NCBI RefSeq assembly: GCF_036687315.1
Contig: NZ_CP144683.1
Coordinates: 2,550,001 to 2,614,000, forward strand
DNA: 64,000 bases
Reading direction: 5' to 3'
DNA from: Sphingopyxis sp. TUF1
GTDB lineage: Bacteria; Pseudomonadota; Alphaproteobacteria; Sphingomonadales; Sphingomonadaceae
This document shows, piece after piece, positions 2,853 through 18,626 of this stretch (position 1 is the stretch's first letter; each line of letters begins with the position of its first letter). A model generated the notes under the pieces. It was not told the DNA's origin. It saw nothing but the letters and a program-made list of their open reading frames with translations, and searched no databases. The position numbers and the translations under genes are program-made.

Positions 2853-4055
2853 TCAGCCCGCAGCGAGATATTTTGGAGCATTCTCTTGGCAATGCGCCCG
2901 AACGCGAGCGAGCCAGCTGTCGAACCAGACCCATGTGTTCTTGTAGTCACCCGCTTTGCCAAAACCGTTGATGGGATTTTTAGCGTCCAGCTCTTTCCAC
3001 AGTGATGTATGAGCCGTTTGGTTGAATCGCTCGTACCCTTCAGCGCGCATCGCGTCGATTATTTGCCTCGCCGTGTAGCGCGATTTGTCGACCTCTTTGA
3101 GCAAGACCGCGTTGATCGCCTTGGCCTCTTCTGAATCGGGCTTGATGAACTCAATGGCCGTGTCCGCCTTGCTCGCTTTCGCGCCAAGCTTTGGAACAAA
3201 TGCAACACGGTAAGAGAAGGCTGGATCCTTCAATTCACCGTCACTCATCTTCGCGTGAAAGGCGTCCATGGTCGACGCGACCGTAGTTGGAAGAGCTGAC
3301 TGCTTTTTGAGGCCCGCTACCTGTGCCGCATCAAATGTCGCGAATTGGAGTGCAATCGGCAACCGGCGCTCAAGTCCGAATTGGGCACCAAACCATGCAC
3401 GAATGGCCTCGTTAAAATTAATGCAGCAAGCTTGCATCAACGGGCCGAGCGCATTGTCTATTCGATCCGTGGACCGATGCTCAATTTCGTGCCGGATCTC
3501 TAACAGTAGTGCGAGGTTCTGTTTCGCGCCCTTGCTCAATGGCAATTTGTCGTTCTTCAAGCACTTGCCGAGTTCCCAATACGATTCCGCACCGCTCGCC
3601 AGAATTTTCGGCACACCATTGGCTTTGTGGCGGTAGTCGATACCTTCGCGCTTGAACCAAGCGTGGCAAAGGTAGGTCCAGCCAATCATTGCCGTCGTGA
3701 TAAATATCTCGGCACGAAACTGGAGGCCAGCTGAATTGAAATTGTGGACTGCTGCGATCATCGCCTCGCGCGACTTAACAAGTAGCTCGTCCCCACGGAG
3801 ACTCAGTCCCGTTTCACCATCGACGTCGGGCCAACAGCTCAGATACTCTTCCAGTTGATCGGCGCTTGCGGATTTAACAGCCTTATGCCTCTTTTCCGAG
3901 CGTATCTCGGAAATCAGCCGGTGATTAATCGAGCGAGTTGGTCTCGTGAAGTAGGCGAGAACGTCTTGATCATTGTACTTTTTGGTAGCGAGCATCGCTT
4001 TGACTAATGCGACTTCCCATCGCTCAAGATTATGACCTCGTTTTCGACTTGGCAT
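2853..4055 (-). CDS. DUF3644 protein with HEPN-type Rx4H motif
   Basis: This 400-residue protein matches my memory of DUF3644 proteins. An N-terminal segment of about 60 residues resembles a DNA-binding helix set (RPTRSINHRLISEIRSEKR). The DUF3644 core follows at about 95-260, and it carries RHEIEH at 188-193, the R-x4-H pattern of HEPN ribonucleases. The C-terminal 130 residues are variable. I chose the ATG at 4055 because GAGG lies about 10 bases upstream; an in-frame start at 4166 would add a 37-residue tail with no family resemblance. The gene is divergent from the MazG-CHAT operon, with about 155 bp between them, and convergent with traA. RNase activity is inferred from the motif only. 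It could be an effector or regulator of the neighbouring system or an independent defence gene. Confidence 0.7.
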   Translation of the reverse strand: MPSRKRGHNLERWEVALVKAMLATKKYNDQDVLAYFTRPTRSINHRLISEIRSEKRHKAVKSASADQLEEYLSCWPDVDGETGLSLRGDELLVKSREAMIAAVHNFNSAGLQFRAEIFITTAMIGWTYLCHAWFKREGIDYRHKANGVPKILASGAESYWELGKCLKNDKLPLSKGAKQNLALLLEIRHEIEHRSTDRIDNALGPLMQACCINFNEAIRAWFGAQFGLERRLPIALQFATFDAAQVAGLKKQSALPTTVASTMDAFHAKMSDGELKDPAFSYRVAFVPKLGAKASKADTAIEFIKPDSEEAKAINAVLLKEVDKSRYTARQIIDAMRAEGYERFNQTAHTSLWKELDAKNPINGFGKAGDYKNTWVWFDSWLARVRAHCQENAPKYLAAG

Positions 4056-4209
4056 GGACTTAGTACCTCGATCCTGGGCCGAATGCGGATGGGCGGCAAC
4101 ACCTATCAGAAAATTGGAGACAGTTTGATTTGTAATTCGAGGAATTCGGTGCTCTCTTTCTGCCACGGATACGAAGAACGGGGCTTCTAGAGGCGCGTTG
4201 GGGGCAAAG

Positions 4210-5901
4210 ATGCAGTTGTCGTTGGATGATCTCTACCGAATGACGGCACACATTTATCAGGACGCCAATCTTGGTCGTAGCAGGGAGGCTACGCTCCTGC
4301 ATTTCGTCGAGGTCTGCGGCATGCTGACGTTGATCGATCGAAAGAAGAAGCGAGACAAGTTCGACGTTCCGGGCGCTCTTTGCAAAGCGTTGGGCTGGTA
4401 CTTCCCGTTACTCGCGAAAATGGGTGTCGAAAGCGTCGAGCAATTGCTGTTCGCCAAATATCCCGGCGTATGCCCCTACTGTCGAAAGTCGCCCCATGCT
4501 GAGCAAGATTGCAAACTCGTGCGAGGGACCGAGGAGGTTCTTTCTCACGAGAAGGTTAGGGAGCTTACGAGCGAGAATTGGGATTCAAGGCCTAAGGACC
4601 TCAATGAATGGCAAGCTATGTTCGGCCGTATTTACCCTCGATCGTATAACGCTGCTGCCGGATTTAGCACGATCGCTTTGCTTGAGGAGGTCGGCGAGCT
4701 TGCGGAAGCAGTGCGCGTTTTCGACAGATACCCTCACTACTTTTATGGCGAGGCGGCGGACGTATTTTCATACATCATGGGCTTAGCCAACGAGTATTCG
4801 TTGGCCTTGAGTGAACGCGATGAGGCCTTCGATTTTCAGGTAGAATATCTTGCTCGATATCCTGGGCTTTGCATTGCGTGCGGCGCCAAGATTTGCATTT
4901 GCCCTACGGTTCCTCAGGCCACCGTAGGGCGGATGGCTAAGGAGATGCCCCTCAGCGTCGGAGCAATCCAAAACGCCGAGGAGTTTGAGAAGAGCGGTCG
5001 GGATGTGGCTAACAGAGTTCTGGAAAGTGTCGGTCGAGTAACTGGGATCGACACCTACCTCCCGTTTGATCGCGGTGAGATGAATGCAGGCCTAACGCAA
5101 TTGGCGTTCCGGCTGGCCAATGCGCTCGGAGACAATAAGGAAACTGCCGATCAGTTGTTCGAATTGGCTATCAGGCTCGGCAATGAGAAGCGTCAAAGTG
5201 GGACGGAGGCGCATCGCCTTACGGTGGACGTGCTCGACTTGTTGAAAGAAGCGTGGCTAAAGGCGGATCCTGAAATCCAAGCGGCTATTGAGCTTGAGCA
5301 GCCGGAACTTCGGCCCCTGACACATATCCTCGATACCAATATTCTTGTTGTGACGGCCAACCCTCGCGGAAGGGACGATCGGGCTCTACGGCTGGATCGT
5401 GAGATCAGTGCGATTCAAGAACGCGTGTTGATGGGCAATGAGCGCGATCGCATCAATATTTCCACCCTCGTAGCAACCACCGTCGACAGTTTACGACATC
5501 GATTGCTTTCGAACAGTTTTGATGTGGTGCACTTTGCCGGACACGCCAATGCTGAAGGGATTGAACTCGAAGGTGAGGACGGTGCCCACACACTGGAGTT
5601 TGGCGCGCTGATGAAGATGCTCGAGGTTCAGAAAAGCCTTAAGTGCGTGATATTGAATGCTTGTAGCGCAATGCAAGGGTTAGATAAGGCTACTGGGCCG
5701 CTCATAATCGGCATGGTCGACGAAATCGACGACGACGAAGCGATCGTATTCGCAAAGGGTTTCTACGACGCGCTTGCATCTGGGCGAAGCCCCGAAGAAG
5801 CATTAGGGATAGCGGAGACCGCCCTTGAGTCTATGGGCATGGACCGTCACATCGTGGCGCGCATATCCGGTACCCGCTCGGCCGAGCGCGCCGAGAGTTA
5901 A
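4210..5901 (+). CDS. MazG-like pyrophosphohydrolase fused to CHAT protease domain
   Basis: First gene of a four-gene operon (563 residues). A Cys-rich segment (C88, C91, C101) precedes a MazG-like all-alpha NTP pyrophosphohydrolase with EEVGE at 159-163 and E181-x2-D184, the metal-binding pattern of that family. A second Cys cluster (C221, C224, C229, C231) follows, so a zinc-binding site is likely. The C-terminal half from about 378 to 550 is a CHAT caspase-like domain: a beta strand (ILVVTANPRG), His445 in HFAGHAN and Cys485 in LNACSAM, the expected dyad. MazG enzymes cleave (d)NTPs to NMP and pyrophosphate; CHAT proteins are peptidases often found in conflict systems. I take the ATG at 4210; an in-frame TTG lies four codons upstream. 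The direct fusion of the two activities is unusual. Domain calls are firm, the system role is inferred. Confidence 0.85.
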   Translation: MQLSLDDLYRMTAHIYQDANLGRSREATLLHFVEVCGMLTLIDRKKKRDKFDVPGALCKALGWYFPLLAKMGVESVEQLLFAKYPGVCPYCRKSPHAEQDCKLVRGTEEVLSHEKVRELTSENWDSRPKDLNEWQAMFGRIYPRSYNAAAGFSTIALLEEVGELAEAVRVFDRYPHYFYGEAADVFSYIMGLANEYSLALSERDEAFDFQVEYLARYPGLCIACGAKICICPTVPQATVGRMAKEMPLSVGAIQNAEEFEKSGRDVANRVLESVGRVTGIDTYLPFDRGEMNAGLTQLAFRLANALGDNKETADQLFELAIRLGNEKRQSGTEAHRLTVDVLDLLKEAWLKADPEIQAAIELEQPELRPLTHILDTNILVVTANPRGRDDRALRLDREISAIQERVLMGNERDRINISTLVATTVDSLRHRLLSNSFDVVHFAGHANAEGIELEGEDGAHTLEFGALMKMLEVQKSLKCVILNACSAMQGLDKATGPLIIGMVDEIDDDEAIVFAKGFYDALASGRSPEEALGIAETALESMGMDRHIVARISGTRSAERAES

Positions 5902-5920
5902 TTCAGGATTTGGACATATA

Positions 5921-7252
5921 ATGAGACAGTTTGGCGTGAAGCATTGGACCAATGAATCGGTTCGTCGTTTCTCGCCAAATGCCGATCCGGTCGAAGCGAT
6001 CATAAAGATGGCGCGCGCTGTCGTATTGCGCGCACGGGACGAAGGATGGCAGGGGCCCCCGTTTAACCCAATTGCGCTCGCCAAAGTGCTACGAATTCCA
6101 GTTGAGGCCAGCGCGGCGGTTCCGGATGCACGGACCATCGTCGATGAGCGTGGCACTCGCATCGAATATAATCCGCAGCAGCGTCGAGCTCGCGCTCGAT
6201 TTTCCATCGCCCACGAAATTGTGCACACGTTTTTTCCCGATCACGGTGAAGCGGTGCGGCATCGGGGAGGCGACAAGACGATCTCCGACGATTGGCAGTT
6301 AGAGTTACTTTGCAATATTGGCGCGGCCGAAATGGTCATGCCGATCGGCAGCCTTCCAAAGCTGACTGAAGTGCCGTCACTTGAGACATTGTTAGCGGAC
6401 CGGATGAAGTTTGACGTGTCGGTCGAGGCGTATCTCATTCGGATCGTCAGTGTCACCGCGGAGCCAGTGACGATGTTCATCGCGTCGGCCCATGCATCCG
6501 GAGACACTTACGACTACCGAATAGATTATACTGCCCCATCTGAGACCGCTCCGCTTCGAGATCTTAGGGAGCAGATTGTCCCAGCAACTAGCGTAGTGCG
6601 ACAATGCACTGCAATCGGAGCTTCGGCGCGGGGCGTTGAAGGTTGGTGGCAAAATGGCGAGGCGCTGATCGAGTGTGTCGGTATCCCCGGTTACCCAGGC
6701 ACAGCATTACCGCGGGTGGCTGGCCTAATTCGTCACAATGAGCGGCGGCTGTCCGATTTTATGCACTTCATCCATGGCGACATTCTGTCGCCTCGGGAAA
6801 TCCCGCCAATTATCGTGTGCCAGCTTGTAAACGATCGAGCCGTTCGTTGGGGCGGTGGTGTAGCGCGGCAGATGGCTCGCAGACATCCTAACGCGGAAGC
6901 CGAGTTTGGCGAATGGATCAAAACTGTTCCCCGCGCGGCAAGACTAGGAGAGGTGCACTTCGCGCGTACGAAAGGCGAGGTGATCCTTGCGAGTTTGGTA
7001 GCACAAGAGGGGTACGGGCAGGGCGCAAGCCGGATACGATATCATGCGTTGAATGATTGTCTGCGCCGTGTCGCAGAGTACGCCAAGCGACACGACTGCT
7101 CCGTACACATGCCTCGTATCGGTACCGGAGGAGCTGGTGCGGATTGGGAGGTTGTGGAGTCAATAATTAGACAGAATTTTGAGGGATTGCAGAAGGGGGT
7201 ATGGATTTACGATCTCCCACCTAGGCAGACCCAGCAAGACATGGGTTTCTAA
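5921..7252 (+). CDS. ImmA/IrrE metallopeptidase fused to macro domain
   Basis: Second gene of the operon, 19 bp after the first (443 residues). The N-terminal half is an ImmA/IrrE-type zinc peptidase: HEIVH at 98-102, followed by ELLCNIGAAEMVMP at about 128-141, where the third zinc ligand (Glu) normally sits. The C-terminal part from about 296 to 435 looks like a macro domain: VNDRAVRWGGGVARQMA at 303-319 and MPRIGTGGAGADW at 397-409, the two ADP-ribose-binding loops. ImmA/IrrE enzymes cleave repressors or effectors; macro domains bind or remove ADP-ribose. I chose the ATG at 5921 because the 32 residues upstream in frame overlap the previous gene and are not domain-like. The next gene starts 2 bp after the stop. 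A macro domain with an ART-like gene downstream recalls toxin-antitoxin logic, which is inference. Confidence 0.83.
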   Translation: MRQFGVKHWTNESVRRFSPNADPVEAIIKMARAVVLRARDEGWQGPPFNPIALAKVLRIPVEASAAVPDARTIVDERGTRIEYNPQQRRARARFSIAHEIVHTFFPDHGEAVRHRGGDKTISDDWQLELLCNIGAAEMVMPIGSLPKLTEVPSLETLLADRMKFDVSVEAYLIRIVSVTAEPVTMFIASAHASGDTYDYRIDYTAPSETAPLRDLREQIVPATSVVRQCTAIGASARGVEGWWQNGEALIECVGIPGYPGTALPRVAGLIRHNERRLSDFMHFIHGDILSPREIPPIIVCQLVNDRAVRWGGGVARQMARRHPNAEAEFGEWIKTVPRAARLGEVHFARTKGEVILASLVAQEGYGQGASRIRYHALNDCLRRVAEYAKRHDCSVHMPRIGTGGAGADWEVVESIIRQNFEGLQKGVWIYDLPPRQTQQDMGF

Positions 7253-7254
7253 GA

Positions 7255-8889
7255 ATGAATCCACGCCCTCGGTTGCAGATAGTGCTGCTTTCAGGGCGCA
7301 TTGGGGCTGGCAAGACGCAACTCGCGCAGGCGTTGGTGGCGCGTCACGACGCGATCTTGATCAAAACGCGCCAACTAATTCTTCAAGCCTCTCCGCGGAC
7401 CAAGGACCAAAGACTGGAACTGCAGAAAGCCGGCGAGAGATTGGATCGCTCGACTGGTGGGCGTTGGGTAGGAAATGCGCTTGTTTCGCTCATAGAAGAG
7501 CGGGGATCAGAGGCTGGGCTGTCCACAGGGCTTTTCGTGCTCGACGCTGTAAGAATTGCGGGACAGATTGAGGCCATTCGTGCCGTATTTGGCAGTTCCG
7601 TTGTCCACCACATTCATTTGACGGCCTCAGACGGCACTCTAGCCCGCCGATATTCAGAACGCACTGCCGCGTCAGATGCAGGGGTTAGCTTCGATCAAGC
7701 GGCGGCGAACGCTACGGAGCGCCATGTCGAAGCCCTGAAGCAGGTTGCCGACACGGTGGTAAACACCGATTACTGCACAATTGAGGGGGTTTTCGTCCGG
7801 GCCACTGCGCTTCTCGGATTGTATCCGCGATCGGTTGATCCCCTCGTCGATGTGCTCGTCGGCGGTCAGTATGGAAGCGAAGGCAAAGGCAACATAGTCG
7901 GACATATCGCCCCTGAATATGATATCTTCGTTCGGGTCGGTGGTCCAAACGCGGGGCACAAAGTGTATGCGGAGCCGAAGCCTGAAGCATACTTCCACCT
8001 GCCGTCGGGATCGGAGAGGGCGCCTAATGCCCAACTTATACTCGGACCCGGCGCTGTAATCTATCCACCGAAGCTGCTCACTGAAATCACTACCCATAAA
8101 ATACCGTTCGACCGGCTCATCATTGATGAGCAGGCGATGATCATCGAAGATCGCGATCGAGACATCGAAGTAGCGAAATTGTCGAGCATGGGGTCTACCG
8201 CGCAAGGCGTCGGATCTGCCTCGGCGCGGAAAATAATGGGAAGGGGAGGGAAGGAGGATCCTGTCGTGCGCCTAGCGAAGGATGTTCCGGAGCTTAGACC
8301 ATATATCAGGGAAAGCCAAAGGACACTCGAGCTGGCGTATTGTCGCGGTCAAAGGATTTTGTTGGAGGGCACCCAAGGTACGAGCCTTAGTTTGCATCAC
8401 GGCCCCTACCCACATGTCACCTCCCGCGACACGACTGTCGCAGGCTGTTTGGCCGATGCGGGTATCGCGCCTCTCCGTGTCCGAAAAGTCGTCGTTGTGT
8501 TTCGAACCTATCCTATACGTGTTGGAGGGCCGTCTGGAGATCTCAGCGGCGGAGAAATCTCATACGAGATCCTTTCCGACCGGTCCGGTATTCCGATTGA
8601 AGAGCTCAGAACAAACGAGGTGACTACCACCACATTGCGACAGCGGCGCCTTGGTGAATTCGACTGGGCTCAGCTCCATCGCTCATGCCTGTTGAACAGT
8701 CCAACCGATATCGCGTTGACCTTCGTAGATTACCTTTCGGTGATGAATCGCCAGGCTTTTCGATTTGAACAGCTAACGGAAGAAACCCTGCGGTTCATCG
8801 AAGAGGTTGAGCGAGTGGCAGGGCAACCGGTGACAATGATATCTACGAAGTTTGACTGGCGGAATGTGATTGATAGGAGATCTTGGTGA
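7255..8889 (+). CDS. P-loop nucleotide kinase fused to PurZ/PurA-like adenylosuccinate synthetase
   Basis: Third gene of the operon (544 residues). Residues 8-190 form a P-loop NMP-kinase-like domain with Walker A GRIGAGKT (14-21) and a lid-like stretch (ARRYSERT). Residues 197-540 are an adenylosuccinate synthetase: GGQYGSEGKGN at 203-213, PNAGHKV at 231-237 with the catalytic His235, EGTQGT at 371-376, TSRDTTVAG at 389-397 and TTTTLRQRR at 457-465. Two key differences stand out. The catalytic Asp of PurA (Asp13 in E. coli, GDEGKGK) is Ser208, and the guanine-specifying KLD motif reads FVD at about 490-492. As I recall, the Asp-to-Ser change is a mark of phage PurZ, which uses dGMP rather than IMP. 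A housekeeping purA role is unlikely given the fusion and the neighbours. Confidence 0.85.
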   Translation: MNPRPRLQIVLLSGRIGAGKTQLAQALVARHDAILIKTRQLILQASPRTKDQRLELQKAGERLDRSTGGRWVGNALVSLIEERGSEAGLSTGLFVLDAVRIAGQIEAIRAVFGSSVVHHIHLTASDGTLARRYSERTAASDAGVSFDQAAANATERHVEALKQVADTVVNTDYCTIEGVFVRATALLGLYPRSVDPLVDVLVGGQYGSEGKGNIVGHIAPEYDIFVRVGGPNAGHKVYAEPKPEAYFHLPSGSERAPNAQLILGPGAVIYPPKLLTEITTHKIPFDRLIIDEQAMIIEDRDRDIEVAKLSSMGSTAQGVGSASARKIMGRGGKEDPVVRLAKDVPELRPYIRESQRTLELAYCRGQRILLEGTQGTSLSLHHGPYPHVTSRDTTVAGCLADAGIAPLRVRKVVVVFRTYPIRVGGPSGDLSGGEISYEILSDRSGIPIEELRTNEVTTTTLRQRRLGEFDWAQLHRSCLLNSPTDIALTFVDYLSVMNRQAFRFEQLTEETLRFIEEVERVAGQPVTMISTKFDWRNVIDRRSW

Positions 8890-9560
8890 CGGACGAAGAG
8901 CTCGGTGAGCTGCTAAAAGATTGCCCGGCGTTGTTTCACATGGCGATGAGGGACAGTTGGCCGCTGATTCAGAAGCACGGGCTTCTTCCGACAAATCGCC
9001 TTCTCGAACTTTTTGATGTGGATCAGGAGACGCGCGCTGAACTCACCACTAAGCGGCGACCAGCGAGCTTTCCTATCGCGCACCCCAACGTTGGGTCCGC
9101 AACGATCCGCGATCAGATCCCGCTATACGACCACCACCTCGCTAAGTGCCTTCAAGGCGGCCTTAGCCCGATTGATTGGCATGCAAAGCTGAACGAGCGC
9201 GTATTTTTCTGGCTGACGGAAAAGCGTCTGCAAACGTTATTGTGCGCGGGCGCGTACCGGAAACAACAGCACGTCGTTCTCAAGATTAATACAGCGATGC
9301 TGGTTAATGATCATCGTGACCAAATTGAGTTGGCCCCGATGAACACGGGTTGCACCATGCCGTTCGCACATCCGCGCGGCCCGGAGACATTCCTTCCGAT
9401 TGATCAGTATCCGTATTCAAACTGGCGAAAAAAGGGGCGGTCGCGTCGTGAGGCAGTGGTCGAATTGACGGTAATTGGCGGGGTCCCGAATATAGCCGAC
9501 TATGTGGAGGAGGTTACAATTCGGAAATGCGGCGAGGATCCAGTGCCCGTGGAAACCTAG
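8886..9560 (+). CDS. DUF7002 family protein, possibly ADP-ribosyltransferase-like
   Basis: Fourth gene of the operon (224 residues). I start it at the GTG at 8886, which overlaps the upstream TGA by 4 bases (GTGA) and has AGGAG just before it; a TTG one codon upstream is possible. The sequence fits the DUF7002 family as I remember it: ALFHMAMRD at 15-23, HGLLPT near 31, a RVFFWLT segment near 103, a stretch ending in INTAMLV, then a conserved Pro/His block (CTMPFAHPRG, FLPIDQYPY) and a closing beta strand (VVELTVIGGVP). An early LFH, a GLLP turn and a central FFW strand resemble DarT-like ADP-ribosyltransferase folds, but I cannot place a catalytic Glu with certainty. Its pairing with a macro-domain protein in the same operon supports an ADP-ribose theme. 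Confidence 0.65.
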   Translation: MTDEELGELLKDCPALFHMAMRDSWPLIQKHGLLPTNRLLELFDVDQETRAELTTKRRPASFPIAHPNVGSATIRDQIPLYDHHLAKCLQGGLSPIDWHAKLNERVFFWLTEKRLQTLLCAGAYRKQQHVVLKINTAMLVNDHRDQIELAPMNTGCTMPFAHPRGPETFLPIDQYPYSNWRKKGRSRREAVVELTVIGGVPNIADYVEEVTIRKCGEDPVPVET

Positions 9561-9578
9561 GCCTGCTGACCTCGTAAT

Positions 9579-10088
9579 CTATTCCGCCGAGGCGCTGAAA
9601 TCGTGAACTAGTTGTGTACGCAAAGCGCTAACCGATTTAGCTAGATCGAGAATGTTCTCGACCAACGCATTCTGACTCTCCTCTGTCATTATGTCGGTTT
9701 CAAACCTGACTTCCGAGCCTTCTTTTACCCTGGCCGACTGCACAACTGGGCCATCGAATTTCAGGGCATCGAAAAGATACTGCGAGTGCGCAATACGATT
9801 TCTGGTCGATCGTTCGCGATGCAATCTATCGCGAGTTGATGCTGCGAGGTCGTCCCATTCGGGGCGGGATTGAGCGCGCACAAGTCTCTCATTTTTCAGC
9901 ATCTCTTGGCTGAGGGCTTCTACCTTATGGAAATTCGACATTGCGGCGAGCCGCTTTTGACTGCCGGTCCAATTCTCATGCCCCCAAAGCATCAATAAGG
10001 CTTGATCGATTAGTCCCTCGATGAATTGGAAGGCGATAAAATACTTCCCGATTGTTATGAAGAGGCGGTCTTCCATCATATTCCTCAA
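9579..10088 (-). CDS. Small HEPN-like hypothetical protein
   Basis: This 169-residue, mostly helical protein is convergent with the four-gene operon (18 bp between stops). It holds RNRIAH at 96-101, an R-x4-H motif as in HEPN ribonucleases, preceded by a basic helix (RDRLHRERSTR). The N-terminal half is amphipathic, with a possible dimer interface (FIAFQFIEGLIDQALLML). I do not recognise a named family. It stands apart from the Apea-type HEPN pair next to it by size and sequence. An N-terminal Met at residue 4 or 5 could be the true start. Function is unknown; an RNase or an RNase-inhibiting antitoxin would both fit the context. Confidence 0.6.
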   Translation of the reverse strand: MRNMMEDRLFITIGKYFIAFQFIEGLIDQALLMLWGHENWTGSQKRLAAMSNFHKVEALSQEMLKNERLVRAQSRPEWDDLAASTRDRLHRERSTRNRIAHSQYLFDALKFDGPVVQSARVKEGSEVRFETDIMTEESQNALVENILDLAKSVSALRTQLVHDFSASAE

Positions 10089-10128
10089 TGCCCGAATGTG
10101 ACAAAGCTATCACAGGCGCGTGCGACTT

Positions 10129-11040
10129 TCAGGCCAGCAGCTCGCGCGTCAACATGTCCTCGCTCGGCAACGCGGAACGGGCAAGGCAGGCCGACAGGCA
10201 CAGGATAAGCAAGTCCCATGCATCGACCCAATCGCGATGATTGAGCTTACCGCCATTACCATGCGCGGCTCGCGAACGCCGTCCATAGCTGCGCTTCGCT
10301 TCCTCATAGGTTTTGAGGCGATCGCTCCGCACTGGCGCGCAAAGCTGGCTCACCAGCAGACCGAGTCGAAACGACACTTCAGTCGAGACATTGGGGAACA
10401 GCGCCTCGATCCCTTGCCAGATATGTAGCAGCGATGAGGATAGGTCCGGAATGGCCGGCGCCGTCTGCAACGCGAGCCGGGCGGCCTTGAGCGGCTGATG
10501 CGCCGCTTCCAGTGCGGTCCAGCGCTCTGCGGCATCGACAGCATCGGCGAACGCCTCCGCCGTAACCGTTCGCTCCGCCCCCACCGTAATCGACTGGAAT
10601 GTCGGCTCGTGCAGCCAGCCTTCGATTTTGCCGTCCGCCGACACGAACCCGCTCTGCAGTTCGGGCGGCAGCTTGGTGCGCATCGTCACGGAATCGCGAT
10701 AGTTGATACCGCTGTAGTCGCGCAAAGTGTGCGTCATTCCGACCGGCATAACGAACGGCGACACCCATTTCAGGTACAGCATCACCTGCAGGACGCGAAC
10801 GCGATCCTGTGCGTTTGCGAAATCCGACGCATCCTTGATCTCGATTTCGAGGTGGCACGCGTTCAGGAACACGTCGAGCAGATGCCAGGAAAATTGCAGT
10901 TTGTGCGACGCCCCGAGCGTCGCGAAATCGAAAGTGGACGTTTCCCATTCGCGCTGGCGCAGTACGGCCCGCGCCGTCTCGACGGTCCGTGGCAGATCCC
11001 CGGGAGAAAGCGCGAGGCACGGGAAGAAATAGCTCGGCAT
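10129..11040 (-). CDS. Apea-like HEPN domain protein (downstream paralogue)
   Basis: A 303-residue protein and the second gene of a two-gene unit. Its start overlaps the stop of the upstream paralogue as TGATG, which suggests translational coupling. The N-terminal 190 residues are a variable beta-rich region. Residues 200-300 match the Apea-type HEPN pattern: LLHIWQGIEALFP at 204-216 and RSRAAH at 255-260, the R-x4-H site, followed by Gly. The neighbouring gene has the same arrangement (LLWSGIEGLL and RSRAVH) and is clearly a diverged duplicate. HEPN proteins usually cleave RNA or serve as their inactive partners; which applies here cannot be told from sequence. The pair sits in a defence-like island. 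Confidence 0.72.
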   Translation of the reverse strand: MPSYFFPCLALSPGDLPRTVETARAVLRQREWETSTFDFATLGASHKLQFSWHLLDVFLNACHLEIEIKDASDFANAQDRVRVLQVMLYLKWVSPFVMPVGMTHTLRDYSGINYRDSVTMRTKLPPELQSGFVSADGKIEGWLHEPTFQSITVGAERTVTAEAFADAVDAAERWTALEAAHQPLKAARLALQTAPAIPDLSSSLLHIWQGIEALFPNVSTEVSFRLGLLVSQLCAPVRSDRLKTYEEAKRSYGRRSRAAHGNGGKLNHRDWVDAWDLLILCLSACLARSALPSEDMLTRELLA

Positions 11041-11900
11041 CAGTCGTGAACGCTGGCGATGCTAGGGGCCAGCGACACGCTGGCCGCTCGCTCATCCAGC
11101 TCCTTTGCGCTCGGCACCCGGCCAAGTTCCACGCATTTGCGTAGCAGGGTGAGCAGTACATCGCCCGCCAGTTCATATCCCTGTTGCAGAATTTCTGGTT
11201 TCGCGATGCTGCCATGTACGGCGCGCGAGCGCACGTCATAGCCTTTCTTGACGCGCTCGAAGTAAAGCGCCTTCTCCGCAGGGGTGCCGTCAAGCAAGAT
11301 GGACGCGTGTAGTGCGATGCGCCGCCGCAGCTCGGAATCGACATCGAGCAGCCCCTCGATGCCCGACCAGAGCAGCATGATCTTGGCATCGTCGTCAAAA
11401 AGATAGTGCGCGTTACCGTAGCATCGCACAGCTTTCTGGAAACGGTTCTCATTGAGCAGGCCATGAAACGCATCGAAATGCACGGTGGCCCAGCTGAGGT
11501 CATTATCACCGGCAGGTGCGACGCTTGGTAAGCGATGGATCACGAGGTTGCGATTTGCGAGCGTGAATCGCGTGCCATGATTGGCTGCGCAATAGAGAGG
11601 CATCACCGGACGCCGACAAGCCAACGCAAGCAGATGGAAAATCCAGAGCGCGTTCCACGCCTTCTCTGGTAGGGTTTGGCCACCGTTATCGTCGATAATT
11701 CGCAGGGAAAAATCAGCGAGCGGTTCCATCGACATGACATTCAGCGTCTCGCGAAGTTCGCCAACTGTCCGGCTACCGAATGAGCTGTCGTTGGTTGGCG
11801 CTTGGCCCGACACGATTATGCCGGGCGCTATCTCACGCTCGGCCTCAATCGTAATGCCGTGCCCGACCAAATTTACGAAACCTGCAGTGCCGACGTCCAT
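11040..11900 (-). CDS. Apea-like HEPN domain protein (upstream paralogue)
   Basis: A 286-residue protein, first of the coupled HEPN pair. I start it at the ATG at 11900, which has an AAAGG-type ribosome site just upstream; the frame stays open to 12059, but the extra 53 residues are rich in Cys, Arg and Pro and look non-coding. The C-terminal domain holds LLWSGIEGLLDVD at 176-188 and RSRAVH at 224-229, the HEPN R-x4-H motif. The N-terminal half resembles the paralogue only in outline (a hydrophobic helix at about 82-96). Both genes keep the catalytic Arg and His, so neither looks like an obvious dead partner. Function is inferred from fold only. Confidence 0.7.
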   Translation of the reverse strand: MDVGTAGFVNLVGHGITIEAEREIAPGIIVSGQAPTNDSSFGSRTVGELRETLNVMSMEPLADFSLRIIDDNGGQTLPEKAWNALWIFHLLALACRRPVMPLYCAANHGTRFTLANRNLVIHRLPSVAPAGDNDLSWATVHFDAFHGLLNENRFQKAVRCYGNAHYLFDDDAKIMLLWSGIEGLLDVDSELRRRIALHASILLDGTPAEKALYFERVKKGYDVRSRAVHGSIAKPEILQQGYELAGDVLLTLLRKCVELGRVPSAKELDERAASVSLAPSIASVHD

Positions 11901-12423
11901 CCTTACCTTTCCGAAACAAGGGCGCGCGCAGCGATACGCAACCGAACAGCAACTGCGAGCGAGGGCGACGGGACCGAATGCCCTAATGATCCTCTCGCTC
12001 ACTTCCTTCCGACAGGCAATATGGCCCGGCTTCTTTGGTCGGATGGGCCGACATGCCAAAGAATAGATGTTGCTTGGCGCGATGCCGCCGGCCGCCCACG
12101 TGACCAGACACGAAACCGACTAACCTGGAAACAAATAAGCCATCAATCGTCTGCGATGGAACGGCGCCCTGCTCTTTTCGCGTAGATTGCCAGTGAGCCC
12201 GTTGGCGTTTTCAGGTTGTCGCGGCTTGGTAAAAGCGAATGTCCGCTTACTCTGATTGCCGCCCAAAAGCCGCCTGTCTCAAATCGGCCAATCAAGTCCG
12301 GTCGGCGAATCAGCATTTCGATCTCTGGCGGCTAGCTTGGGAGGAGTGCGAATCTAGAGGTAATTGTCAGCGATCGCGAACTATGATCTTCCACAAGCTC
12401 GAAGACCACTGCGGGAGGGGGCT
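11901..12423 (+). other. Intergenic stretch between HEPN pair and membrane protein gene
   Basis: About 520 bases without a supported gene. The left part may hold the promoter of the HEPN pair on the minus strand, the right part the promoter of the small membrane protein. Open frames here have no family resemblance and no clear ribosome site. No insertion sequence ends or tRNA gene were seen. Confidence 0.4.
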
Positions 12424-12780
12424 ATGGTTTGGTTCAGATTATTTCTTGGGGCGTGCCTGCTGTCGATCCTCGTCTACACCGGCGTCACGATCCATGCGCA
12501 CGGAAGGAATCTGCTGCCGATATTCTTCGGTGACATGGCTGCCATGGCTTGGCCTGGCCAGTTCAATTTTGACTTTTTCACTTTCCTTCTGCTTTCGGGG
12601 CTTTGGACCGCCTGGCGAAACGGCTTCACCCTTGGCGGCCTTGCGCTCGGGCTCATCGCAGTATTCGGCGGAATGCTATTTCTATCGATCTATCTGATTA
12701 TTCTTAGCTATCGTCATAAGGAGAATATCAGCGAGATGATGCTGGGAGCCGAGCGCGTGCGCAGGCTAGCTGCGAGGTAA
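12424..12780 (+). CDS. Small inner-membrane protein, function unknown
   Basis: A 118-residue protein with three predicted membrane spans: about 3-21 (FRLFLGACLLSILVYTGVT), 48-62 and 72-95. The ATG at 12424 is preceded by GGGAGGGGG five bases upstream, a strong ribosome site, so I prefer it to the ATG at 12364. Similar short proteins with the LLPIFFGDMAAMAWPGQFN pattern occur in many proteobacteria under no functional name, as far as I recall. It stands alone, with no partner in the same direction. It is unlikely to be a toxin, since it resembles a conserved housekeeping-type membrane protein. Confidence 0.7.
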   Translation: MVWFRLFLGACLLSILVYTGVTIHAHGRNLLPIFFGDMAAMAWPGQFNFDFFTFLLLSGLWTAWRNGFTLGGLALGLIAVFGGMLFLSIYLIILSYRHKENISEMMLGAERVRRLAAR

Positions 12781-13094
12781 CGTCCGCCTTCGCATGGAGC
12801 GGCTCCAATTGCGGACTGACCGCTACCGGCCAGAGTTGGCGGTTTCGGCCGTTGGCGGGACAACGCTTCCGATGGCCAAAAAAACAGGGGGGAAGCGGAT
12901 GTCAATTAGACTTGTATAGAGCTGCCGATCTTCCCGTCTCCACCGCCGCGGCCAAATGGGGCGACCGTTCCGCCGCAAACGCGGCATGGCACAAGCAGCC
13001 GAACGACGGTGATCCTGCCCGATCTCACGTGTCTGGACGTCTCCGGTCCTCGCGTCAGACGACCCGCCCTGGTCAGCACGCTACAGCCTCGAGC
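12781..13094 (+). other. Intergenic stretch, no gene seen
   Basis: About 310 bases between the membrane protein gene and the convergent DUF3037 gene. I see no domain-bearing frame, no tRNA and no clear terminator hairpin with a T-run. A longer open frame on the plus strand across 12852-13394 is the shadow of the DUF3037 gene. Confidence 0.4.
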
Positions 13095-13481
13095 CTAGAG
13101 GTAACGAAGCGACAGGCGGTCCATTTCTGCCTCCAGAGTGAGATATGTCCATGCCCCATGAACCTCGGAGCATTGAATAAGTGCACTTTTAGGTGCGACA
13201 AGCCACTGAAATCGGTTCCGCCATCGCAACTGTTGATCGGAGTCGGGCCAGGGGCCTTGGCAAATGGCACCGATGCGCGAGAGGTGTTGCTCAACCATCG
13301 CCCAGTCGACACCGGGCCAAAGGCCATGAAACCGAGTGAGATTCCGGCGCGGGCGAAACGCGAGATACTCCACATCGATCCCGGACATCAGTAGCCCGAC
13401 GTTCACGAACTCCCCACGCTCCATTGAAGGGACGACGCGTACAGTCGCATATTCATACTCCAGAGCCTCTGCATCCATCAT
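13095..13481 (-). CDS. DUF3037 protein, partner of HipA-like kinase
   Basis: A 128-residue protein of the DUF3037 type: an early YEYATVRVVPSMERGEFVNVG (given here in part, about residues 8-28) followed by AFRPRRN and a C-terminal aromatic stretch. The ATG at 13481 overlaps the stop of the upstream HipA-like gene as ATGA, so the two are translationally coupled. DUF3037 genes are, from memory, commonly found next to HipA-family kinases, but the biochemical role of the family is not known to me. The conserved Met-Glu-Arg-Gly-Glu turn is intact. It may be the cognate regulator or substrate of the kinase. Confidence 0.75.
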   Translation of the reverse strand: MMDAEALEYEYATVRVVPSMERGEFVNVGLLMSGIDVEYLAFRPRRNLTRFHGLWPGVDWAMVEQHLSRIGAICQGPWPDSDQQLRWRNRFQWLVAPKSALIQCSEVHGAWTYLTLEAEMDRLSLRYL

Positions 13482-14284
13482 AGAGTCCTGTAGGCCGATC
13501 TGACATCGTCGCAAAAGGTCTGCGCGCGGAGCGACCGCTCCTGAAGATAGTTTGCGTACCACAGCCGCCAACTGTCGGCATCATGGTTCGCCTTCAGACT
13601 TTCCGGCATCCATTCTTCGGGCAAACCGGCCGTCACCTCCATACAAAGCTGCGCATCGATCCGGGCGCGACAAAAAGCATCTGCTTCGTCGAACTGCGTC
13701 GCTTCGCGTAGCAGAATGTGGTCCTTGACGAATTCCGCCCCGCGATCAACTTCGGCGCAGGCCTTATCCTTCCACCCATGATGGAAGAAGAATGCCGCGC
13801 CATGATCGATGAGCCAGATATCGCCGTGCCAGCTGAGCAAATTCGCATTACGCCATGTCCGATCCACATTGCTTGTGAACGCATCCAGCCACAATATTCG
13901 CGATGCGGATGTAGGGTCGATACGGTCGGCATGAGGATCGAACGTAGCGGCTCCCTCGAGATATTGCAGAGCGAAATTCGTTCCGACGCTTCGCTCGAGC
14001 AACTCTTTAATGTCGGGATCGCGTTCGGTCCTGCTCAACGCGCGGGGCACATCGATATGTGCGCAATGGGGGATGTTGAGATCGAGCGCGCGCGCAAGGC
14101 CGGCTACGATATGCTCGGCAACCAGCGCCGCGGCGCCTTGCGCAGCACCGCGAAATTTTGTGATCCAAACTGTTTGCGCGTCATCTTCAACGAGAGCAGG
14201 CAATGAGCCCCCCTCACGCATCGGTGCGATGTAGCGGGCGGCGCTGACCTGCCTCGCCGAATAATTCATTCCGTCCAGCGGCAC
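13478..14284 (-). CDS. HipA-family kinase-like protein
   Basis: A 268-residue kinase-like protein, first of a coupled pair with the DUF3037 gene. Visible kinase landmarks are Lys43 in WITKFRG (ATP anchor), NVDRTWRNANLL at 139-150 with the catalytic Asp141 and metal-binding Asn, and LIDHG at 158-162 replacing the DFG motif. It is much shorter than HipA (about 440 residues) and lacks the N-terminal subdomain, as is usual for the group found with DUF3037. HipA-like kinases can phosphorylate tRNA synthetases and cause dormancy. Here a toxin role is inferred only; no HipB-like repressor is present. An alternative start lies at codon 6. Confidence 0.75.
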   Translation of the reverse strand: MPLDGMNYSARQVSAARYIAPMREGGSLPALVEDDAQTVWITKFRGAAQGAAALVAEHIVAGLARALDLNIPHCAHIDVPRALSRTERDPDIKELLERSVGTNFALQYLEGAATFDPHADRIDPTSASRILWLDAFTSNVDRTWRNANLLSWHGDIWLIDHGAAFFFHHGWKDKACAEVDRGAEFVKDHILLREATQFDEADAFCRARIDAQLCMEVTAGLPEEWMPESLKANHDADSWRLWYANYLQERSLRAQTFCDDVRSAYRTL

Positions 14285-15105: not shown

Positions 15106-15437
15106 ACGCGGTTTCAGCCGGGTTGCCGGGCCTACTCGTTCGCAACGCACAACCCGCGGATCGCTTGTACTAATATCGCGGGGCGATTTGGCCCAGTCCA
15201 AACTCGGCGATTCCGACATGTTCTGATCAATCGGGGACGGCGGCGCCGATGGGGTGCCGCTCGGCCCGCACCGTAGGTGCCGCCACGATATCGGCAACAT
15301 CACTTGACGTGAAATACAGATACTATAATGTATATGAAATCGATTCTGTATGAAAGTCGGATTGGGATGATGCTGGCCTGTTCCGGACGCCGCTACCTCT
15401 TCTGCGGCGGCAAAGCTAGCAAATGGGCAGCGGAGGG
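15106..15437 (+). other. Intergenic region carrying catabolic promoter and operator
   Basis: About 330 bases. The right half is AT-rich and holds TTGACG at 15304 and TATAAT at 15324 (14 bp apart, short for a sigma-70 promoter) together with a palindromic operator. The left half shows nothing I can name. Confidence 0.5.
15311..15336. promoter_or_regulatory. Palindromic operator, motif A site 1
   Basis: Arms GAAATACAGA and AATGTATATG flank the centre TACTAT. The left arm and the first half of the centre share a 12-base identity (AAATACAGATAC) with the site before the TonB receptor gene at 34603-34628. It overlaps the TATAAT box before the DUF35/thiolase unit, so a repressor bound here would block transcription. 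Confidence 0.6.
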
Positions 15438-15866
15438 ATGGATTTGAACGATGTAACGGTAAGCTCGACGGCACGTCCGATCGTCGGTTATCTCAAAGTA
15501 TCGAAGGAGGGGGAACCCTATCTTTGCGGGACGCGCTGTGAGAGCTGCGGCGAGATATTTCTCGGGCCCCGTCGCGCTTGCGGCAGGTGCGGGGGGCAGG
15601 ACTTCGCCGAAACGCGCCTTGCCCCTCGGGGCCGCCTCTACAATTACACTGTCGTTCATCGCAGCTTTCCTGGCGTGCCAACGCCGTTCGTCTCCGCGAT
15701 CGTCGAACTTGACGGCGGCGGCGTGATCAAGGGCACGCTCGAAGGTGTCCCGCCCCGCCATGATGCGGTGCATTTCGATATGCCAGTTCGGCTGGTCTTC
15801 AAGGAAATCGCTGCCGCCGGAGCCGACGAGGAGCCGTTCCTCGGCTTTTCATTCCAGCCTCTCTGA
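15438..15866 (+). CDS. DUF35 OB-fold/zinc-ribbon protein, thiolase partner
   Basis: A 142-residue protein with a zinc ribbon (CESCG at about 35-39 and CGRCG at about 48-52) followed by an OB-fold (GRLYNYTVVHRSFPG, then PFVSAIVELDGGGVIKGTL). Such DUF35 proteins bind acyl-CoA thiolases or SCPx-like aldolases and complete their active sites. The ATG at 15438 has GGAGG directly before it; an ATG at 15423 is less well spaced. It lies 28 bp before the thiolase gene, which fits a two-subunit enzyme. In steroid catabolism the comparable pair is Ltp2 with the DUF35 part of ChsH2, but the substrate here is unknown. Confidence 0.85.
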   Translation: MDLNDVTVSSTARPIVGYLKVSKEGEPYLCGTRCESCGEIFLGPRRACGRCGGQDFAETRLAPRGRLYNYTVVHRSFPGVPTPFVSAIVELDGGGVIKGTLEGVPPRHDAVHFDMPVRLVFKEIAAAGADEEPFLGFSFQPL

Positions 15867-15894
15867 CACGGCCGACCAGCCAGAAGGAAGAATC

Positions 15895-17046
15895 ATGACA
15901 GACGTATATGTCGTTGGAACGGATATGATCCGGTTCGGCCGCTTTCCAACCCGAACCGTGCCCGATCTCGGGGCCGAAGCAGCGCTTCTGGCGCTTGCCG
16001 ATGCCGGGCTGGGTATCAAGTCGGTGCAGGCGGTCTATTGCGGCAGTTTCGGCGAAGCCGGGTCAATGATCGGCCAGCGCGTGCTTCGAGAAATTGGCCA
16101 AATCGCAGTGCCTGTCGTGAATTGCTCCAATGCCTGCGCGACAGGAGCTACGGCGTTTCGCGAAGCGTGGATGGCGATCAAAGCCGGTGCGTATGATATC
16201 GTGCTTGCGCTCGGGGTCGAGCAGATGGGCAAAGGCATGCTGGTCTCACCGGGAGCTGGCCCCATACCTACCGAAGGGCTCCTCGGCTCCGATACGCTCC
16301 CTTCGCTTTTTGCGCACGTCGGCATGGAGCATTCAAGAAAATACGGTACGACCTTCGAACAATTTGCGAAGGTGTCGGTCAAAAACCACCATCATTCGAC
16401 GATGAATCCCAAGGCGATGTATCAGATCGAGACCCCGCTTGAGGATGTGATGGGCGCCGAGATGATTTCCTATCCGAACACAAAGCTCATGTGTTCGGTC
16501 AATGTCGACGGTTCGGCGGCCGCGGTGCTGTGTTCGGACAAGAAGGCGCGCGAGCTCGGACTGATGAATAGGGCCGTCCGTGTTCGCGCCTCCGCCCTGT
16601 CAAGCGATCCCTACGGTTCGCGCAACGCGGCTATGCCTGATTTTAATGCGGTAACCCGAATTGCCGCTGACAACGCCTATGACGGTGCAGGCCTGGGCCC
16701 CGAGGCGATCGATTTGGTCGAGCTTCACGACTGCTTCGCAACCGCAGAGATCGTCCATTACGAGAATCTGCGACTGTGCGGCGACGGGGAAGGGGGCCGT
16801 ATGATCGATGAAGGCACCACAATGCTTGGAGGCCGGATTCCCGTCAATGTCTCGGGCGGACTCCTTTCAAAGGGGCACCCTCTGGGCGCCACCGGCATTG
16901 CTAACATCTGCGAGATCGCGGCGCATCTGCGCGGTGAAGCCGGACGACGTCAAGTCGAGGGTGCCCGCATCGGAATGACGCATGTCGCGGGGCACGTCGT
17001 CGACATGGGCTCGGCGTGCGCCGTGCACATCCTTGAGAAAGTCTGA
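15895..17046 (+). CDS. Thiolase/SCPx-type acyl-CoA acyltransferase or retro-aldolase
   Basis: A 383-residue thiolase-superfamily enzyme of the SCPx/lipid-transfer type. The nucleophilic Cys lies in NCSNACATGATAF at about 78-90. The C-terminal part has HDCFATAEI (about residues 276-284, the HxxF motif) and GGLLSKGHPLGATG (about 323-336), where thiolases normally have a GHP His. The start at 15895 follows AGAAGGAAG. These enzymes thiolyse 3-oxoacyl-CoA or, in the Ltp2 group, cleave beta-hydroxyacyl-CoA side chains. The DUF35 partner just upstream supports either role. It is probably co-transcribed with the DUF35 gene and perhaps the cupin gene. Confidence 0.88.
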   Translation: MTDVYVVGTDMIRFGRFPTRTVPDLGAEAALLALADAGLGIKSVQAVYCGSFGEAGSMIGQRVLREIGQIAVPVVNCSNACATGATAFREAWMAIKAGAYDIVLALGVEQMGKGMLVSPGAGPIPTEGLLGSDTLPSLFAHVGMEHSRKYGTTFEQFAKVSVKNHHHSTMNPKAMYQIETPLEDVMGAEMISYPNTKLMCSVNVDGSAAAVLCSDKKARELGLMNRAVRVRASALSSDPYGSRNAAMPDFNAVTRIAADNAYDGAGLGPEAIDLVELHDCFATAEIVHYENLRLCGDGEGGRMIDEGTTMLGGRIPVNVSGGLLSKGHPLGATGIANICEIAAHLRGEAGRRQVEGARIGMTHVAGHVVDMGSACAVHILEKV

Positions 17047-17117
17047 TTCATGCTCGCCGACGACATGTGCGACAATTTCCCCGGCGCAGACTGCAGTCTC
17101 GTATGAAACGGGTGGAA

Positions 17118-17447
17118 ATGCGTCACTACACCGAGCTTCCGCAGTCGAACACTCCGCCCGCAGCGGGCGGCATCTCTTACCTTGCGTCCGACGTCCTCGG
17201 CATCGAGGCGTGCGCGATGACGGTGATGAAGTTGCCGGCCCATGCCGAGGCGTCCCCCCAAGCCTTGCAGTGTGACGGACTGATTCCCGAAGTGTTCGTG
17301 GTGGTCGGGGGAAGCGGCTACCTTGCGACCGACACCGAAAGGCTCCCGCTTCGCCAAGGTATGATCGCCCGGGTCTCGGGGTCCCCTTGCATCGTTCGCG
17401 CGGAGGCGGAAGGCATGACGCTCATTCTTCTCGCGCCGCGGCCTTAA
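17118..17447 (+). CDS. Cupin-fold protein
   Basis: A 109-residue single-domain cupin-like protein. Visible features are the first strand pair (SYLASDVLGIEACAMTVMKL), then PAHAEASP, and the second motif GGSGYLATDTERLPLRQGM with the cupin Gly turns. The usual metal-binding His-x-His is replaced by PAHAE, so metal binding is uncertain. I prefer the ATG at 17118, which follows GGTGGAA, to upstream Met codons at 17103 and 17067. It is 71 bp after the thiolase gene and may be the last gene of that unit. The role could be a small-molecule sensor or isomerase; I cannot tell. Confidence 0.65.
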   Translation: MRHYTELPQSNTPPAAGGISYLASDVLGIEACAMTVMKLPAHAEASPQALQCDGLIPEVFVVVGGSGYLATDTERLPLRQGMIARVSGSPCIVRAEAEGMTLILLAPRP

Positions 17448-17487
17448 GAGCCGCTACGCGAGCCGGGCCGCGTGAGGAACTGGAATT

Positions 17488-17512
17488 CAAATACAATACC
17501 GCATTGTAATCC
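17488..17512. promoter_or_regulatory. Palindromic operator, motif A site 4
   Basis: Arms CAAATACAAT and ATTGTAATCC flank ACCGC, and the inner part TACAAT/ATTGTA is a perfect inverted repeat. The left arm matches the other motif A sites (CAAATACA). It lies 90 bp before the FAH-family gene. The spacing is one base shorter than in site 2, so the match is less certain. Confidence 0.5.
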
Positions 17513-17602
17513 AGATATGAATATGATTTAAGGGGCGGCACCGGTGGATGGGTGTTCGCCGAGGCCGTGGAAAGCGGACATCGTGCTCGAAGGAGATTCC
17601 CC

Positions 17603-18625: not shown

Positions 18626-18626
18626 C

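Follow-up and report, generated by a model that had tools for sequence, protein, structure and literature searches.

We analysed an operon of Sphingopyxis sp. TUF1 that lies within a 64,000-nucleotide stretch of contig NZ_CP144683.1 (hereafter the window) and found that its shared unit is a patchy set of three genes, designated B, C and D, which in the window follow an accessory gene, A. Gene B joins an ImmA/IrrE-type peptidase to a macrodomain, gene C fuses an adenylate-kinase-like domain to a synthetase of the PurZ/PurA type, and gene D encodes a DUF7002 protein with the predicted fold of an ADP-ribosyltransferase. These enzyme classes are well supported, and from them we infer the circuit and a role in defence; phages or other mobile DNA are the probable opponents against which the operon acts. 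A cellular clade that carries the PurZ serine and is fused to a domain resembling nucleoside monophosphate kinases stands beside the predicted ADP-ribosyltransferase in 78 of 80 loci. If our reading is right, 2-aminopurine nucleotide synthesis would be tied to a conflict based on ADP-ribosylation, and DUF7002 would gain a function. The composition of the operon is apparently categorically new, a claim that covers the gene set and not its mechanism.

A sequence-only reading of the window had proposed a unit of four genes, A-B-C-D. The coordinates behind that proposal were confirmed: all four genes are tightly packed on the plus strand, with gaps of 19 base pairs (bp) between A and B and 2 bp between B and C, followed by a 4-bp overlap of C and D. 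As a four-gene unit, however, the operon did not recur, whereas B, C and D co-occur widely. When the genome collection was searched with a profile of C, 415 of the 459 pattern matches proved to be relatives; the best 80 were kept as genome loci, and the content of these loci was determined with hidden Markov models (HMMs) run over all six frames, a match anywhere in the locus being counted. Sixty-one loci held B, C and D, ten held C and D together with an HD nucleotidase and a protein that we call P452, seven held C and D only, and two held B and C with D cut off by the contig end. Among the seven, L031 begins where its contig does, and C is only partial in L058; in the two B-C loci, L039 and L052, the locus stops 139 and 47 bases past the end of C. 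No locus contained both B and the HD/P452 pair (0 of 80). Simple picking of open reading frames (ORFs) in 87 loci (79 genome and 8 plasmid loci; L056 was lost, and some D genes were missed through antisense picks) showed a B gene on C's strand and no more than 200 bp upstream of it in 59 loci, and a D gene no more than 200 bp downstream in 73. The operon usually begins with B, since 54 of the 59 loci had no same-strand ORF of at least 90 amino acids within 60 bp upstream, four had one, and one lay at a contig end. One locus, L034, carries two kinase-PurZ genes in opposite orientation, at 9992-11596 (+) and 12375-13976 (-), one adjoining D and the other adjoining B.

Going by their record titles, the 80 loci come from Pseudomonadota, Acidobacteria, Planctomycetes, Verrucomicrobia, Chloroflexi, Bacteroidota, Actinomycetota, a Binatia bacterium, archaeal bins and other sources, many of them being metagenome bins, in which contigs can be misplaced. 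The distribution is patchy. Within the window's phylum, 5 of 398 genomes had a match to the D family (PF22531), and within its taxonomic family 4 of 397 matched our D profile, the window's own genome included in both counts; B's profile matched none of 397 other phylum genomes at an E value of 1e-15. Four of six other D loci had C adjacent, one with B and three with HD/P452, and the two without C had weak D scores of 72-74 bits (L100 and L056 are probably the same record). On plasmids, C was matched over at least 80% of its length in 8 of 91 matching records, and a DUF7002 gene adjoined it in all eight; the other two of the ten plasmid DUF7002 genes, the least similar by score, had no C match.

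Gene D matched DUF7002 in Pfam with 230.9 bits. Its AlphaFold model (predicted local distance difference test, pLDDT, 96.4) gave 17 Foldseek matches at an E value of 0.001 or better; of the 50 rows listed, 47 were ADP-ribosyltransferases and three were chains of Rhs toxin-thioredoxin complexes. The DarT rows 7omu, 7yk3 and 8baq had E values from 3.6e-4 to 7e-4, 7omw was also matched, and Tpt1 appeared from rank 27. When the D profile was compared with 18 DarT sequences, the two aligned over D residues 13-201 with a probability of 75.9 (E 2.3e-5), Glu194 of D falling on a conserved DarT glutamate that we take to be the catalytic one; the four unrelated profiles of the HD protein, B, P452 and C each gave under 1%. 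Eight residues do not vary among the 63 D proteins aligned: His19, Arg59, Arg76, Asp77, Asn104, Tyr125, Asn154 and Glu194. The top match in a sequence search of the PDB with D was DarT1, at a weak score (15.5 bits, E 0.095), the NCBIfam KptA model gave 13.4 bits, and a search for D in phages gave no match. The assignment of D to the ADP-ribosyltransferase fold, with its His and Glu conserved and a remote homology to DarT, is thus well supported by sequence and model, and so is what the sequence-only reading had offered as a possible ADP-ribosyltransferase.

Gene C matched AAA_33 (27.8 bits, cut-off 27) and Adenylsucc_synt (180.5 bits) in Pfam. In its kinase half, the Walker A residues Gly19 and Lys20 are present in 62 of 62 aligned rows having a letter, and Foldseek, run on a model with a pLDDT of 92.7, matched this half to the adenylate-kinase-related 3lw7 (target-normalised template-modelling score, TMt, 0.77-0.78) and to adenylate kinases. 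In the synthetase half, a serine takes the position of the catalytic aspartate of PurA: GSEGKG was found in all 86 C proteins of 500-620 amino acids (three shorter ones of 89 were dropped). Seven of nine housekeeping PurA proteins have GDEGKG, and the motif search found nothing in the other two, in Arthrobacter phage PurZ0 or in 22 viral-contig rows with VGGPNAGH. The genome has a PurA of its own with GDEGKG, which rules out C as a housekeeping copy. According to PMC12884076, each of 147 phage PurZ sequences has serine in place of the aspartate, and Ser or Gly stands there in four archaeal relatives. PurZ converts deoxyguanosine monophosphate (dGMP) and aspartate to a precursor of 2-aminoadenine nucleotide and is fed by MazZ, a MazG-like (d)GTP diphosphohydrolase, as described in PMC8342488.

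A tree of 58 rows was built from the window's C and 28 of 85 other C proteins, 18 of 69 viral-contig rows, four phage PurZ and seven long PurA. The 29 C proteins formed one clade (100/99) on the PurZ side, which was set apart from the seven PurA (100/100), and the four phage PurZ and 18 viral-contig rows stood beside the C clade; the program gave a long-branch warning for this tree, from whose rows short archaeal PurA are absent. When 21 archaeal-bin relatives were searched for such short proteins, only long forms were obtained. On viral contigs, the best 80 of 84 relatives of C's profile were kept, and ten of these rows span kinase and synthetase, most others beginning near residue 200. In many of these contigs (L139-L208) the relative corresponds to the synthetase half without the kinase, and its identity to C of the window reaches 39-40%, compared with 34% for phiVC8 PurZ.

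The two halves of B matched Peptidase_M78 with 21.8 bits, just under the cut-off of 22, and Macro with 25.6 bits (cut-off 22). The peptidase half resembles IrrE and CapP and keeps the HExxH motif, His98 and His102 being present in 50 of 50 aligned B proteins and Glu99 in 49. The macrodomain is of the ALC1 class; its nearest structures were BT1257 (2fg1, E 7.9e-21) and SCO6735 (5e3b, E 1.1e-17), and DarG (5m31) was matched with an E value of 4.9e-4. SCO6735 strips from thymidine the ADP-ribose that DarT attaches, and a change of Gln85 abolishes this activity (PMC9411070). Gln362 of B aligns with that residue (SCO6735 numbering was transferred to the 5e3b chain by an inferred 20-residue offset, checked on His24, Asn27 and Lys34), so that B carries the Gln85 equivalent of a macro ADP-ribosyl hydrolase of the SCO6735 type. 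Since this equivalent of an essential residue is invariant (50 of 50), B is more likely, judging by its sequence, to be an ADP-ribose eraser than only a reader. A reader-only macrodomain, lacking the Lys/Asp of TARG1, was weakened as a candidate, since these two residues are missing from SCO6735 as well, which owes its activity to Gln85.

The surroundings of related loci provide moderate evidence for neighbours of the defence type, moderate because the control comes from a single phylum. We scanned 110 of 587 candidate neighbours and, as a control, 110 ORFs from stretches of related genomes of one phylum. Among the neighbours, the mad2 model was matched by 7 of 110 and type I methyltransferase models by up to 4 of 110, with 259 models in all; in the control no model exceeded 1 of 110, with 189 models in all. 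Three plasmid copies lie near annotated AbiJ-type, RelA/SpoT, SIR2-family, AbiEi/AbiEii, VapBC and recombinase genes, and the neighbours of other plasmid copies are metabolic or unnamed, or lack annotation. Genes of clusters 10, 11 and 25 form a recurring group upstream in L057, L061 and L070, and one of them looks ThiF-like by eye.

The reading that we favour, tentatively and with less than even confidence, is that B-C-D is a mobile conflict module, resembling a toxin and its antidote, with its own supply of a modified nucleotide. C would make a 2-aminopurine deoxynucleotide, which the fused kinase would phosphorylate, and D would move ADP-ribose from nicotinamide adenine dinucleotide (NAD+) onto a base or nucleotide, possibly at the exocyclic 2-amino group that guanine and 2-aminoadenine have in common and adenine lacks. 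The macro half of B would erase this mark and restrain D, with the peptidase half as a switch, and infection would free D, blocking replication or translation. In the window only, the MazG-like A could supply C with (d)GMP, as MazZ does for phage PurZ. C and D form a constant pair, and therefore one of them is likely to use what the other makes, or the two share a target. We consider unlikely the further proposal that the unit is a cellular 2-aminoadenine branch used as a weapon in bacteria and perhaps archaea, with an origin common to the phage Z-pathway; here the kinase-PurZ protein would make 2-amino-deoxyadenosine nucleotides, D would mark their 2-amino group in DNA or on free nucleotides, and B would be the safety catch.

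Several results weigh against the favoured conflict module, whose weak spots are the substrate of C and the pairing of a guanine-type amino mark with B's macrodomain. C scored 265.8 bits with the NCBIfam model of archaeal-type adenylosuccinate synthetase (cut-off 368) and 188.3 bits with that of PurZ (cut-off 300), the synthetase half lying below both cut-offs. Its best solved sequence match was Pyrococcus PurA with 173.6 bits, PurZ chains giving 96-127, and its fold was also nearest to Pyrococcus PurA (TMt 0.92-0.93, as against 0.79-0.84 for PurZ). Because the archaeal PurA scores exceed those of PurZ and the tree holds no short archaeal PurA, inosine monophosphate (IMP) rather than dGMP is a possible substrate of C. 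As regards the mark, PMC11543638 describes the guanine marks of DarT1 as erased by NADAR and not by the macrodomain protein DarG, which is paired with DarT2, an enzyme acting on thymidine; an amino-group target would therefore fit a macrodomain eraser badly. In addition, the top Foldseek rows of D belong to other transferase families, DarT appearing from rank 8, and the query-normalised scores (TMq) are 0.30-0.43; B's profile was unmatched in 17 of the 80 C loci, and the one-phylum control of the neighbour scan gave single Argonaute-, cyclase- and Gabija-model matches.

The alternative that survives best, which we nevertheless regard as rather unlikely, is ADP-ribose signalling with the logic of Thoeris, where ThsB is the TIR-domain protein: C and D would make an ADP-ribosylated nucleotide signal, and the macro half of B would read it and fire the peptidase, or perhaps the CHAT domain of A in the window, on proteins of the cell. 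The constancy of C and D (78 of 80 loci) beside a replaceable B would suit this arrangement, as would an ALC1-class macrodomain and a peptidase fused in one protein. However, the invariant SCO6735-type glutamine of B suits an eraser, no TIR match was found among the eight window proteins scanned, and B's profile was unmatched in the HD/P452 loci. We find it doubtful that the unit is a base-swap or pool weapon, in which 2-aminoadenine deoxynucleotides made by C would enter phage or host DNA and be harmful alone, while D and B would regulate C or NAD+. In its favour, the Z-cluster of S-2L has a toxic effect on E. coli, whose DNA then contains 2-aminoadenine (PMC8342488), and C has as a neighbour either an HD nucleotidase, in 10 of 80 loci, or MazG, in the window; yet D is kept as strictly as C, and the archaeal-PurA likeness of C makes this product less certain.

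Similarly doubtful is a PurA-like C that acts on IMP or another purine nucleotide as a sensor or supplier of adenine nucleotides for D, in which case 2-aminoadenine would play no part. The scores for archaeal PurA exceed those for PurZ in models, sequences and structures alike, whereas the serine in all 86 C proteins and the grouping of C with phage PurZ in the tree lacking short archaeal PurA argue the other way. It also seems quite unlikely that the operon serves nucleic-acid repair or nucleotide salvage and not conflict. A kinase, a KptA/DarT-like fold and a macrodomain are also found in RNA end repair (compare the Tpt1 rows of Foldseek), but the spread is very patchy (4 of 397 family members), plasmid copies lie near Abi, SIR2-family and VapBC genes, and restriction genes lie near some chromosomal copies. 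A four-gene system with A as an essential part is highly improbable, since the 19-bp A-B gap and the MazG and CHAT motifs of A are set against its absence from all 80 loci, the lack of full-length A in 384 other genomes and the first position of B in 54 of 59 loci.

The favoured module resembles several known systems in part. As in DarTG, a remotely DarT-like protein stands beside a macrodomain of a class that removes DarT marks; unlike in DarTG, the macrodomain is fused to an IrrE-type peptidase, C lies between the two, and 17 of 80 loci have no match to B. Membership of DarTG was rejected, as neither D nor the window's genome gave a match to PF14487 and the DarG model NF048014 scored 18.3 bits against a cut-off of 250. 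With the phage Z-cluster (PurZ, MazZ, DatZ) the operon has in common the serine of C and a nearby MazG-like protein (window) or HD nucleotidase (second form), but C is cellular, forms a separate clade, scores closer to archaeal PurA overall, is fused to an adenylate-kinase-like domain and is partnered with a predicted ADP-ribosyltransferase. SCO6735 of Streptomyces coelicolor is among the solved macrodomains closest to B, the one of them for which we found a tested activity, and it shares the essential glutamine, but it has no peptidase fusion; the word operon is absent from the available main text of PMC9411070 on this protein. The zinc peptidase half of B is like CapP, the regulator of CapH/CapP cyclic-oligonucleotide-based anti-phage signalling systems (CBASS), and like IrrE/ImmA, and no helix-turn-helix partner and no CBASS cyclase were found among the eight window proteins scanned. 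CmdTAC resembles the operon in being a defence system with an ADP-ribosyltransferase, one that modifies mRNA (PMC11618068). Its other parts are an antitoxin and a chaperone, unlike the peptidase-macrodomain and nucleotide enzymes described here.

Among the titles and abstracts listed in a literature search, which left aside bioRxiv and most subscription journals, none described the B-C-D set or the C-D pairing, and the search gave no publication on DUF7002 or on adenylosuccinate synthetase with a macro domain in defence. Adenylosuccinate and PurA are not mentioned in the available part of PMC9503650, and PMC12884076, in its available text, describes PurZ as a phage enzyme with four archaeal relatives. 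The earlier characterisation of the genes as a set of nucleotide and ADP-ribose enzymes with two-domain fusions, patchy and apparently undescribed, is upheld.

In the second form of the unit, found in 10 of 80 loci, the HD nucleotidase and P452 stand in place of B. Two HD proteins were scanned, and both matched phage deoxyribonucleoside monophosphate phosphatases (PHROG 318, 212 and 236 bits), with a YfbR-like match just under the cut-off and weak matches to dATP triphosphohydrolase (26-31 bits). P452 (L008:9105-10460 and 14 relatives, alignment A6) is a highly conserved protein of about 450 amino acids; it had no Pfam match, its PHROG and PDB matches were at chance level only, and it may resemble phosphoenolpyruvate synthase. 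The C proteins sampled from this form (L004, L005, L008, L072, L075, L079, L086 and L091) group together inside the C clade (99/96), which suggests a single exchange of B for HD plus P452, the deeper forks of the clade being unsettled. A separate small kinase related to the kinase half of C was seen near D in L033, L042, L053, L066, L067, L080, L082 and L088, all from Burkholderiales or Pseudomonas; the kinase seen in L069 is instead the kinase piece of C itself, which falls in a different ORF.

The sequence-only reading had named the domains of all four proteins, and Pfam bore out CHAT, Macro, the kinase, the synthetase and DUF7002, whereas the MazG match of A was sub-threshold and the M78 match of B borderline. 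Gene A has the MazG motif EExxE/ExxD as EEVGE at residues 159-163 and EAAD at 181-184, and the CHAT-type motifs HFAGH and NACS. The HMMs found A in none of the 80 C loci, and of the 385 genomes searched in the class, that of the window alone has it in full length. Two others match the CHAT part, and one matches residues 4-50 with 66% identity near a contig end; in the 25 of 35 plasmid records listed, the match likewise covers the CHAT part only. Since a MazG enzyme beside a PurZ-type enzyme fits the phage logic of supplying dGMP to PurZ, A is possibly an addition peculiar to this locus.

Table 1. Features of the operon and its left neighbour, in positions of the window
Feature	Position	Strand	Status and evidence
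Gene A, MazG-like + CHAT protein, 563 amino acids	4210..5901	+	accessory; ORF call, motifs, comparison of related loci
MazG-like stretch of A, residues 156-195	4675..4794	+	Pfam 13.8 bits, under the cut-off of 22
CHAT domain of A, residues 359-539	5284..5826	+	Pfam 38.6 bits (cut-off 24); PDB CHAT protein 8tl0, E 5.8e-9
Gene B, ImmA/IrrE-type zinc peptidase + ALC1/SCO6735-like macrodomain, 443 amino acids	5921..7252	+	core
Peptidase_M78 stretch of B, residues 74-145, CapP-like	6140..6355	+	Pfam; CapP model 60.6 bits; IrrE 3dte, CapP 7t5t
Macrodomain of B	6755..7249	+	matches to 2fg1, 5e3b, 5m31
Gene C, adenylate-kinase-like P-loop kinase + PurZ/PurA-type synthetase, 544 amino acids	7255..8889	+	core
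Kinase half of C, about residues 8-190	7276..7824	+	Pfam; Walker A; Foldseek 3lw7
Synthetase half of C, residues 198-544, GSEGKG at 207-212	7846..8886	+	motif, tree, fold
Gene D, DUF7002, predicted ADP-ribosyltransferase fold remotely like DarT	8886..9560	+	core
DUF3644 protein, candidate defence gene PDC-S19, outside the operon	2853..4166	-	PADLOC 342 bits

Gene D starts with GTG at 8886, with an in-frame TTG at 8883. Of the neighbours proposed earlier, traA and several HEPN genes, the first corresponds to a large ORF at 16-2787 that by eye looks like a traA relaxase/helicase. The second corresponds to three successive proteins at 9579-12059 (-), in which R-to-H motifs, presumably of the HEPN type, were seen by eye; a Pfam scan of the three gave no HEPN or other significant family. 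In an empty-site comparison of the flank 15400-19400 with 12 other genomes of the genus, 6 gave matches, all of them short and none exceeding 660 bases (at 64%). The DUF3644 gene adjoins the operon directly on its left, on the opposite strand. The G+C content is 53-57% over 3001-10000, 57-60% at about 9-16 kb and 59-65% beyond 15 kb, in agreement with the lower G+C that had been noted for the operon.

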